Assembly (NCBI GenBank): GCA_947631055.1 | Contig: CANRJZ010000003.1 | Span: forward strand, 1 to 35,315 | DNA length: 35,315 nt | Reading direction: 5' to 3' | Source of the DNA: an uncultured Clostridia bacterium | GTDB taxonomy: Bacteria; Bacillota; Clostridia; Oscillospirales; Ruminococcaceae | Part shown: positions 2,918-7,154 of the stretch, one piece after another | Numbering within the stretch: position 1 is the first letter of the stretch | Layout of the letters: each line of letters opens with the position of its first letter | Position numbers and translations under genes: made by a program | Notes under the pieces: model-generated | The model's input: the letters and a program-made list of their open reading frames with translations, nothing else | Told to the model about the DNA's origin: nothing | The model's database searches: none

Positions 2918-2952
2918 CATAATAAGTATGTATATGTCATATGGAGGTCATT

Positions 2953-3780
2953 ATGCCATATCCGGAGAAAAAATATCGCAGGAATGATCCCGAAAGCCGT
3001 ATCCGCCGTTCAGATCAGCAAAACGGCGTTAAGGAAGAAAACGGCGGGGCTTCGCTCATAATCGGACGAAATCCGGTGATAGAGGCTCTCAAAGCGGGAA
3101 AAAGCATAAATACGGTCTATGTCAGCGGAGAAGGCGGGAGCCTCGGTCTTATCTGCCGTATGGCAAGAGAAAAAGGCATAGTCGTCAAACAAACCACCGA
3201 TGCAAAGCTTTCCGAAATGTGCGGGGGAGCTTCCCATCAGGGGGCGGCAGCAAGCGGCGCGTGCGCCGAATATATTACGGTGGAAGAACTTCTTGAGATA
3301 TCGGAAAAAAAAGGCACAAAGCCTTTTATCATAATATGTGACGAAATTGAAGATCCTCATAATCTGGGTGCGGTCATCAGAACTGCCGAGGCGGCGGGAG
3401 CCGACGGGATAATTATTCCTAAACGGAGAAGCGCAGCCCTTACGGAAACGGTTTTCAAAACTTCCGCAGGAGCGGCAAGCTGGCTGCCGGTGGCAAGAAC
3501 GGCAAATATACCCGCAGCGATCGATCTTCTCAAAAAACATGGACTGTGGATATACGGAACGGATGCGTCCGGAGATGATTACACATCTTCGGATATGACG
3601 GGGAGCCTTGGACTTGTAATAGGTTCGGAAGGCTTCGGAATGGGAAGGCTCGTCAGAGAAAAATGTGATTTTCTGCTTAAACTTCCCATGTACGGAAAAA
3701 TAACTTCCCTGAACGCTTCGGTAGCGGCGGGAATATTTATGTATGAAGTCGTAAGACAGCGCGCAGCGCAAATAAAATAA
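2953..3780 (+). CDS. rlmB: 23S rRNA (guanosine-2'-O-)-methyltransferase, TrmH/SpoU family
   Basis: IIGRNPVIEALKAGKSINTVYV; LGAVIRTAEAAGADGIIIPKRRS; LGLVIGSEGFGMGRLVREKCDFLLKLPMYGKITSLNASVAAGI. GGAGG at 2942-2946 favours ATG 2953 over 2941. Confidence 0.92.
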   Translation: MPYPEKKYRRNDPESRIRRSDQQNGVKEENGGASLIIGRNPVIEALKAGKSINTVYVSGEGGSLGLICRMAREKGIVVKQTTDAKLSEMCGGASHQGAAASGACAEYITVEELLEISEKKGTKPFIIICDEIEDPHNLGAVIRTAEAAGADGIIIPKRRSAALTETVFKTSAGAASWLPVARTANIPAAIDLLKKHGLWIYGTDASGDDYTSSDMTGSLGLVIGSEGFGMGRLVREKCDFLLKLPMYGKITSLNASVAAGIFMYEVVRQRAAQIK

Positions 3781-3794
3781 GGGAGGAACCGGAT

Positions 3795-6677
3795 TTGGCT
3801 GACGGTAAATACTCGCTTGATGATATTCTTAACGAATATTCTTCCGGAAGAAGTGTAGGATCGGGTAATAATATCGATGTTGACGACATTCTTGGCAGCT
3901 ATGAGAAAAAAAGTGCAGGGAATTCTCCGGAGTCCGTACCTGAAACTCATGCGGATAAGGAAAAGATCTCGCTTCACAATACGGATATCTTCAACAGTGT
4001 AAATTCCAGATATGACGAAACGGGGATAACTTATCAGCAGGAAGACGCCGGACCCGCTGAGATCCCCGCTGCGGAAAAAGAAGAAAAGCTTTCCTCCGGA
4101 CAGGTCCGCCCGATAAAAACAGTCAGGGCAGCCAAGTCTTCGGACGACGCTTTTGAAAAAAAGTATGAACGCCTTTCTGAGGCAATAACGGCAGTAAAGG
4201 ACAGAACACCGTCGGATGCGTATGTTCCGCAGCCAAAGCCGGACAGATCTTTTTCGGAAAAGTTCGAGCAGACAGATCTTTACGGCGATGAGGAAGAAGA
4301 ACGCGATACCGGCGAGATAAGGGAAGATATCAGACAGGGGATACGTTCGCTTTTCGGCAAAAAGGAAAACAAAAGACATGAGACCCCGCAGACTCCCGCT
4401 GCTCCGGAACCGCCTATACAAAGCGCGGGAGCGGGAAATAATACGCCTTTGGAAGATCCTTTTGAAAAATATTCCTCTATAGCGGAAAAGGATCTTGACG
4501 ATATATTGAACGAATATTCCGAAACGGAAAAGAAAAACAATAAAAAAGAAAGTTCGCAGATGACCCTTCATAAGGGCATAACAGATCTTTTTACAAGACT
4601 TATCCCTAAATCAGACGGATCTGAAGTATCGGGAAATACCGAGTTGCTTGACGGAATGATGAAGGCAAAGAAGGAACGTATTTCCCGCACACAGCATGTT
4701 GCTCCGATAGAACGCAGGAGCATATCCGATATAGATCTTAATCTTGAGGATAAAATAATGTCCGATACCGGAAATATTCCGGCGGACGGTGAGCAGAGCG
4801 AGATCGAAAAGATAAATGCTCTTAAAGAACGCCGCAGCAAAAAGATAAAGGATTTTGTCCTTGTGGGCGAAGAGGAGGACGTTTCCGGCGAAGAGACGGA
4901 GGAAGAAGAACAGGCAAGAGTCATAGATGATTTTGAAAGCTTTGAGGACGCGCCGTCCATAGCCCATGATATTGCCCAGCTTAAAGGAAGCCTGCTGTTA
5001 AGGCTTATAGTGCTGGTGATATGCTTTGCGGTAAGTATGTACATAGCGCTGGCAAATGATAATCAGGGACTTCCGATAATGGAAATGCTGAATAAGCGCA
5101 GTCAGACGAATACATATCTTTTTGTAAACGCCATAATAGGATTGTTTGCGGCATTTTCAAGCTATACGGTCATATCCTGCGGACTTTCAAAGATAGTTTC
5201 GCTGAAAGCGGACTGCGACAGCCTTTGCGCGGTGTCTATAGTTACGTCGATAGCTTCGGCTATGATAATGTTTGCAAACACCAATCTTATCAGAGGAAGT
5301 TTTGCGCATGTCTATATACCTGTAGCAATAGCCTCGCTGGTGTTCAATACGGTCGGTAAGCTTCTGATAGTCGGAAGGACGCAGAAGAGCTTCCGGTTCG
5401 TTTCGGAAAGCGGTGACAAGTATGCACTGTTCCGCGTTGAAGACGAGGAAACGGCACAGAATTTCACAAGAGGCGCGCTGAACGATTTTCCTAAACTGGC
5501 GTCAATGAGAAAGACCGAGTTCCTGTCGGAATTCTTAAAGACATCATATGCCAGCGACAGTATGGACAGGTTCTGCCGGATATTCACGCCTGCCGTGATG
5601 ATAGCGGCTGCCATAATAGGCGTGGTAGCCGGTATACTCGGAAAAACTGAGCACGGTCCTTCGTCGGTCTATATAGGCATATCGGTATTTGTGGGAATAA
5701 TAACCATATGCACCGGTTTTTCAACGATGCTGACGGTCAATCTTCCTATGTACAGAGCGTCTAAGAAGAATGCCGAAACGCAGGGAGTTATCCTTGGCTT
5801 TGACTGCATAGATGAATTTTCTGAGACGAACAGCGTACTTATAGATGCGGAACAGCTTTTCCCGCAGGGAAGCGTAAAGCTTTCTGCGATAAAGGTATTT
5901 TCCGATACGAGGATAGACGAGGCGATAGTTGAAGCGGCAAGCCTTACCACTCAGGCGGGAAGCATACTAAAGAATATGTTCTATGATATAATCGGCGGCA
6001 AGACAGAACTTCTTGATCCCGTTGAAAGTTATATTTTTGAAGATTCTATGGGACTTTGCGGCTGGATAAACAACAAGAGGGTGCTTTTGGGCAACAGGGA
6101 ACTTATGGTGAACCACAGCATAGACGGTATGCCTCCTCTTTCAAAGGAAAAGGAATACACCAGTTCGGGAAGATATGCCGTTTATCTTTCCATATCGGGC
6201 GAATTGTCGGCGATGTTCCTTGTGGAAATGACTCCGACAATGGAAGTAATGCGGTCGCTTCAGGAACTCCAGAAAAACAATGTTTATGTTATGATACGTT
6301 CTGTAGATTCGCTGGTGTCCATAAGCCGTCTTTCGGAATTTTTTGATGTTTCTCCCGAATATCTGAAGCTTGTGCCGTTCCGCGTACATGAGCAGTTCAG
6401 GGAGATAACGGAATATCAGGTAGAGCAGAAAGCAACGCTTGCATGTTCGGGAAAATTCTCTGCGGCGGCGTCATTGATACTTAGCTGTATACATATGCGC
6501 GGCACTATAGCTATGGGGATAGGCTTGCAGGCGGTATCTATGCTTCTCGGAGTGCTGATATGCCTTGTTATGGTGGTGCTCAATAGTTTTCAGGAACTTT
6601 CTGCGAGCATGATAATGACTTACAATATAATTTTTACAATGGTGCTGGTGATATTCCAGTTTATCAGAAAGAATTGA
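3795..6677 (+). CDS. Degenerate P-type-ATPase-like membrane protein (pseudo-ATPase) with long low-complexity N-terminal region
   Basis: TTG start with GGGAGG 8 nt upstream; C-terminal half follows P-type ATPase order (TM, P-domain position VLIDAEQLF, N-domain-like GLCGWINNKRVLLGNRELMV, VYLSISGELSAMFLVEMTPTMEVMRSLQEL, TM pair) but catalytic motifs are not conserved. Confidence 0.75.
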   Translation: MADGKYSLDDILNEYSSGRSVGSGNNIDVDDILGSYEKKSAGNSPESVPETHADKEKISLHNTDIFNSVNSRYDETGITYQQEDAGPAEIPAAEKEEKLSSGQVRPIKTVRAAKSSDDAFEKKYERLSEAITAVKDRTPSDAYVPQPKPDRSFSEKFEQTDLYGDEEEERDTGEIREDIRQGIRSLFGKKENKRHETPQTPAAPEPPIQSAGAGNNTPLEDPFEKYSSIAEKDLDDILNEYSETEKKNNKKESSQMTLHKGITDLFTRLIPKSDGSEVSGNTELLDGMMKAKKERISRTQHVAPIERRSISDIDLNLEDKIMSDTGNIPADGEQSEIEKINALKERRSKKIKDFVLVGEEEDVSGEETEEEEQARVIDDFESFEDAPSIAHDIAQLKGSLLLRLIVLVICFAVSMYIALANDNQGLPIMEMLNKRSQTNTYLFVNAIIGLFAAFSSYTVISCGLSKIVSLKADCDSLCAVSIVTSIASAMIMFANTNLIRGSFAHVYIPVAIASLVFNTVGKLLIVGRTQKSFRFVSESGDKYALFRVEDEETAQNFTRGALNDFPKLASMRKTEFLSEFLKTSYASDSMDRFCRIFTPAVMIAAAIIGVVAGILGKTEHGPSSVYIGISVFVGIITICTGFSTMLTVNLPMYRASKKNAETQGVILGFDCIDEFSETNSVLIDAEQLFPQGSVKLSAIKVFSDTRIDEAIVEAASLTTQAGSILKNMFYDIIGGKTELLDPVESYIFEDSMGLCGWINNKRVLLGNRELMVNHSIDGMPPLSKEKEYTSSGRYAVYLSISGELSAMFLVEMTPTMEVMRSLQELQKNNVYVMIRSVDSLVSISRLSEFFDVSPEYLKLVPFRVHEQFREITEYQVEQKATLACSGKFSAAASLILSCIHMRGTIAMGIGLQAVSMLLGVLICLVMVVLNSFQELSASMIMTYNIIFTMVLVIFQFIRKN

Positions 6678-6753
6678 TATGATAGGCGGTTTTTGCGGAG
6701 CGATGTGGGTATATGTATCCGCAGATCGGTGTATAAAATAGTATTATAAAAGC

Positions 6754-6785
6754 AGCAGACCGAACCGGATCCGGTTCGGTCTGCT
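6754..6785. terminator. Bidirectional terminator between convergent genes
   Basis: AGCAGACCGAACCGGATCCGGTTCGGTCTGCT, 32-nt perfect palindrome followed by TTTTA and preceded by ATAAA. Confidence 0.85.
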
Positions 6786-6794
6786 TTTATGCTG

Positions 6795-7154
6795 TTATTT
6801 TTCCTTCGATCTGAATATGAGCGCAACAGCAAGTCCGAAAAGTATTGCCGCAGTGATACCGCCTGCCGCTCCGGTAAGTCCTCCGGTCAGGACGCCTATA
6901 AAACCTCTTTCGTCTACGGCTTGCTGAACTCCTTCTACAAGAATATTGCCAAAACCCGTCAGCGGAACACTTGCCCCTGCTCCCGCAAGATCAACGAGAG
7001 GTCTGTACAAGCCGAATGCTCCGAGTATCACTCCGGCTACAACATACGAAACAAGTATCCTTGCCGGCGTCAGTTTAGTGTAGTCGATAAGCGTTTGTCC
7101 TATGGCGCAAAGCACTCCGCCGATAACAAACGCCCATAAATAATTCATAAACAT
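6795..7154 (-). CDS. spoVAE: Stage V sporulation protein AE
   Basis: FMNYLWAFVIGGVLCAIGQTLIDYTKLTPARILVSYVVAGVILGAFGLYRPLVDLAGAGASVPLTGFG. Confidence 0.92.
   Translation of the reverse strand: MFMNYLWAFVIGGVLCAIGQTLIDYTKLTPARILVSYVVAGVILGAFGLYRPLVDLAGAGASVPLTGFGNILVEGVQQAVDERGFIGVLTGGLTGAAGGITAAILFGLAVALIFRSKEK

Follow-up and report, generated by a model that had tools for sequence, protein, structure and literature searches.

The locus and its neighborhood

The window, i.e., the whole stretch of 35,315 nucleotides that was analyzed, carries on its forward strand a gene for a 960-aa protein related to the P1B-type ATPases, hereafter the pseudo-ATPase. The gene, its parts and its upstream neighbors are as follows:

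2555–2812, + strand: membrane protein of 85 aa, MIKGINRRVVEI..., kept ahead of rlmB at 20 loci (same cluster)
2941–3780, + strand: RlmB (23S rRNA G2251 2'-O-methyltransferase; TIGR00186, E 3e-69), directly upstream of the pseudo-ATPase gene
3795–6677, + strand: whole pseudo-P1B-ATPase gene, 960 aa, TTG start, TGA stop
3795–4916, + strand: cytosolic, charged, low-complexity N-tail (residues 1–374)
3810–3839, + strand: N-tail motif copy 1, YSLDDILNEY
3873–3902, + strand: N-tail motif copy 2, weaker, IDVDDILGSY, seen at genus level
4491–4517, + strand: N-tail motif copy 3, DLDDILNEY, retained within the genus
4917–6674, + strand: P1B-like membrane/P/N core (residues 375–960), eight predicted helices (MA, MB, M1–M6)
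5406–5546, + strand: what is left of the actuator (A) domain, about 47 aa, lacking TGE (AlphaFold2 model and alignment)
5706–5723, + strand: position of the CPC metal site in M4, reading ICTGFS (alignment)
5844–5858, + strand: position of DKTGT, reading DAEQL (alignment)
6048–6107, + strand: N-domain strip MGLCGWINNKRVLLGNRELM, the best-kept part
6297–6311, + strand: position of TGD, reading RSVDS, with the Asp codon at 6306–6308
6441–6476, + strand: place of GDGxND, reading ACSGKFSAAASL

The preliminary description had placed the start of this gene at 5040, which is wrong: the true start is the TTG at 3795, a position shared by the orthologs compared, and the interval from 5040 covers the C-terminal 57% of the protein, leaving out the 374-aa charged N-tail and the P1B-specific helices MA and MB. 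The strings that it quoted are all in frame, namely ICTGFS (5706–5723), VLIDAEQLF (with its Asp codon at 5844–5846), MIRSVDSL (approximately 6291–6314), ACSGKFSAAASL (6441–6476) and WINNKRVLLGNRELMV (6060–6107).

Across the order, rlmB precedes the pseudo-ATPase gene in the same orientation at each of 20 loci, which represent roughly as many families, with a gap of -62 to 109 bp, the exception being one genome in which a stop splits the gene. Within the family of the window, rlmB is in turn often preceded by the gene for the 85-aa membrane protein, to which a Pfam search assigned no family. At eight of the 20 loci (L136, L141 and L146–L151), a gene encoding an EF-G-like GTPase follows downstream. 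No envelope-gene neighborhood was seen at these loci, rlmB being the only order-wide neighbor. In the window, the spoVAE and spoVAD genes lie on the opposite strand, beyond a strong palindrome with a T-run at approximately 6755–6790 (within 6750–6795) that separates the 3' end of the pseudo-ATPase gene from spoVAE and is probably a terminator serving both strands.

The constancy of rlmB leaves room for a translation-linked role, in which the protein would act as a membrane factor, either on ribosomes bound to the membrane or during maturation of the 50S subunit, and the usually short gap (<110 bp) and the recurrent EF-G-like gene point the same way. However, RlmB is a housekeeping enzyme, operon partners are often functionally unrelated, and the N-tail motif of the pseudo-ATPase is common to a sortase and to LspA (see below), which are not ribosome factors. 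We therefore regard a ribosome-linked function as unlikely.

Homology to P1B-ATPases and the fate of the catalytic motifs

By sequence and fold, the 3795–6677 protein is a true P1B-ATPase homolog. NCBIfam matched it to CopA (E 4e-13), as it did all 37 members of alignment A3; a Pfam search returned no family for the 960-aa protein. A profile of 18 homologs found LpCopA in the PDB (3rfu, E 3e-30), and all 19 PDB matches of this profile were P-type ATPases or isolated ATP-binding domains, nearly all of them P1B. An AlphaFold2 model of residues 375–960, built from 37 natural sequences, reached a pLDDT of 91 and a pTM of 0.85. Its best Foldseek match was again LpCopA (4bbj, E 4e-20), with ATP7B and a zinc P1B-ATPase next in rank, and the top matches were all P1B, which bears out the earlier reading of this region as a P-type ATPase fold. 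The TM-scores of about 0.5 and rmsd of about 12 Å, which mean that the exact conformation is not readable from the model, probably reflect a differing placement of the domains. As we read the predicted helix list, the helices are arranged as in P1B pumps, and the additional MA/MB pair is present, MB being interrupted mid-helix.

The fate of the pump motifs was followed in one alignment of 110 homologs and 21 canonical P1B pumps, in which rows that are fragments give rise to smaller denominators. Against these 21 pumps, the strings quoted above align with the phosphorylation site, with TGD and, judged by position and length, with the lost GDGxND region. TGE and GDGxND are absent from all 110 homologs, and CPC in M4 from all 101 that could be scored; at DKTGT, neither the Lys nor the Gly is found in any of 101. 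Pump motifs are likewise absent from seven more divergent homologs. Thus, no ortholog has DKTGT, TGE or GDGxND in place, and the losses first noticed in a single gene are conserved. The one DKTGT string encountered, in the ortholog at locus L130, sits in the N-tail linker rather than at the catalytic site and was set aside as a chance occurrence.

Segment lengths changed together with the motifs. Between the NMD motif and the phosphorylation site lie 206 aa, compared to 269 aa in canonical pumps; this is the truncated A domain, shortened by some 60 residues. From TGD to the C-terminus there are 123 aa instead of 160, the GDGxND region being about 37 aa shorter, and the distance from the phosphorylation site to TGD, at 153, is the same as in pumps.

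The Asp of the phosphorylation site, described earlier as kept, is indeed present in the window gene and throughout its genus; across homologs it is found in 67 of 101 and is then never followed by KTG. An active transporter that uses this residual Asp in some unconventional chemistry would be compatible with its persistence, but the residue is Ser, Arg, Thr or Asn in the remaining homologs, no homolog has KTG, TGE or GDGxND, and the A domain is cut short, all of which makes residual transport highly improbable.

The claim that every catalytic motif is lost holds in the functional sense but not to the letter, as the Asp of TGD is retained in 92 of 93 homologs. Similarly, the N domain keeps the equivalents of the ATP7B glycines G1101 (93 of 94 homologs) and G1149 (94 of 94). 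The survival of this Asp and these glycines would be compatible with nucleotide binding, and with a nucleotide-dependent activity in place of a pure scaffold function. The protein could accordingly be a sensor of nucleotide or metal, whose degenerate N and P domains would bind without hydrolysis and whose membrane part or N-tail would signal occupancy. A precedent for the binding step is the degenerate human P-type-like protein TMEM94/ERMA, which has P-type architecture without TGES and binds AMPPCP while showing no ATPase activity (PMC12134183); its function is disputed, and it has also been argued to be a Mg2+ pump (PMC13322241). Against a sensor, the homologs have other residues at the adenine-site positions of ATP7B E1064 and H1069, and the loss of CPC makes metal binding of the P1B type unlikely. 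This leaves sensing as a possible function, although one that we would not expect.

Distribution and selection

Within the order, which the names of its members (Ruminococcus-like and Oscillospiraceae MAGs and the isolate Merdimmobilis hominis) suggest to be GTDB Oscillospirales, exactly one match at E <1e-35 was found in 187 of 199 genomes. Among the other 12, seven have a divergent, motif-less copy, two have canonical pumps only and three have none; taking the single-copy strong matches and the divergent copies together, the gene is present in at least 194 of the 199. In samples of 240 genomes from the class and 199 from the phylum, no match of comparable strength came from outside the order, and the sequences examined there are canonical pumps. 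In a tree, all 43 pseudo-ATPase sequences fall into one clade that excludes the 27 canonical pumps (SH-aLRT 100), a result that, with the root not known and the branches long, speaks to this single split only and is consistent with one origin. Our reading is that the gene was inherited vertically, in single copy, within one bacterial order. Searches for bacterial pseudo-P-type ATPases in the literature library covered found no paper on this family.

Pairwise comparisons within the genus gave dN/dS values of 0.03–0.08 for the core and 0.06–0.17 for the N-tail; some of the dS values are close to saturation, and the pair L002/L003, with a dS of 0.26, gives a dN/dS of 0.026. The core is hence under strong purifying selection, as expected of a gene that is maintained rather than decaying, which is how the preliminary description had seen it. 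In favor of a decaying pseudogene or an assembly error stands one ortholog, in genome G282 (L123/L136), whose in-frame TGA may be a sequencing error, a true break or a case of recoding; but as almost every genome of the order has an open frame, and with such dN/dS values, this explanation can practically be dismissed. Collectively, the conserved fold, the loss of catalytic residues in all orthologs and the purifying selection make the status of the protein as a pseudoenzyme well supported.

The N-tail motif and a possible scaffold function

The N-tail is long, charged, disordered and poorly alignable. Within its first 70 residues, however, a motif of the form [S/T][ILV][DE][DES]ILxE[YFI], sought by a regular expression slightly looser than this consensus, occurs in 64 of 79 homologs, compared to a mean of 0.8 and a maximum of 5 in 500 shuffles and to one of 79 in residues 101–170 of the same proteins. 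The 79 rows include near relatives, such that these counts are not independent, although the motif recurs in many families. About one fifth of the homologs have no clear N-tail motif, in some cases owing to mis-called starts.

DNA patterns for the motif were used to search for it. Most matches fell within the pseudo-ATPase gene. Outside it, in the window's own genome and its genus, sortases with a long cytosolic N-tail carry the motif at about position 10 (MSDDKKFTLDDILAEYDD; loci L036, L172, L176, L177, L185–L188 and L192–L194). In the related family f14, nine LspA (signal peptidase II) proteins from nine genera have a long, low-complexity C-tail with the motif at its extreme C-terminus, called here by reading the sequences, the tails ending in YSLEDILAEFRDI, YNLDDILAEFRDL, FSLEDILAEFGEH and similar strings (L282–L288, L293 and L311). 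The motif is thus conserved in the pseudo-ATPase and common to other membrane proteins. In the literature library covered, a search for its letter strings found no paper.

Some further matches were discarded. An ABC-2 permease (L252) carries the motif N-terminally in a single genome, its relatives being devoid of the tail, and was not counted as support; motif matches in EF-Ts, HAAS-like and Fe-S proteins (named from reading their sequences) and in short ORFs of the same genome are internal or due to chance.

The presence of a well-preserved dead pump in nearly every sampled genome of the order suggests an ancient change of use, from pump to non-pumping membrane scaffold with a short docking tag. 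The function that we propose, and to which we give roughly even credence, is that of a non-pumping membrane scaffold or adaptor for cell-envelope assembly, recruited through its motif and possibly modulated by nucleotide. The pseudo-ATPase would insert into the membrane as a copper pump does, with eight helices including a P1B-type MA/MB pair and a kinked MB, but lacks the parts required for phosphorylation, dephosphorylation and coupling to metal transport. Its retained P and N domains, together with the membrane part, would offer a folded platform, and the short, amphipathic, acidic motif of the N-tail may dock on a candidate cytosolic partner, the same one that sortase and signal peptidase II would use. 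Weak nucleotide binding may still modulate such a scaffold. Counting against this proposal are the lack of an envelope-gene neighborhood, the fifth or so of homologs with no clear motif, and the retained Asp and glycines, which could point to a nucleotide-dependent activity. Of the two roles first suggested, scaffold and sensor, it is the conserved N-tail motif that leads us to favor a scaffold or adaptor. More tentatively, and short of even credence, we suggest that a copper pump became a core, non-catalytic membrane hub throughout the order, and that the terminal motif gathers this hub, sortase and signal peptidase II at one cytosolic partner.

If this holds, the terminal docking motif would be a new one and would represent a common recruitment system for envelope proteins. 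The pseudo-ATPase, having no complete catalytic motif yet being a single core gene in nearly all sampled genomes of an order of gut bacteria, would stand as a clear example of an ion pump put to a non-pumping use. As the motif is common to sortase and signal peptidase II, it could serve as a ten-residue bait to find the partner directly.

Several known systems resemble parts of this picture. TMEM94 shares the degenerate P-type architecture; unlike the pseudo-ATPase, it resides in the human ER, has ten TM helices and is structurally nearest to SPCA rather than to P1B pumps. Bacterial pseudokinases and other pseudoenzymes have likewise lost catalytic residues while their fold remained under selection (PMC12599244), but their folds are different and none is known to be a P-type ATPase. 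With the P1B pumps themselves (CopA; LpCopA 3rfu/4bbj), the pseudo-ATPase shares the sequence and fold of the TM, P and N domains, the MA/MB helices, the Asp of an NMD-like motif, the second Gly of the N-domain GxG and the Gly of GN. Unlike these pumps, it lacks CPC, DKTGT, TGE, HP and GDGxND, its A domain is truncated, and its N-tail is disordered and motif-bearing, with no recognized heavy-metal-binding domain. As for docking, GpsB recruits several membrane enzymes to one hub by means of a short motif on their cytosolic tails, and its motifs are basic (SRxxR type). The docking proposed here would be analogous in placing a short motif on the cytosolic tails of several membrane proteins, although the motif of the pseudo-ATPase is acidic and hydrophobic instead.
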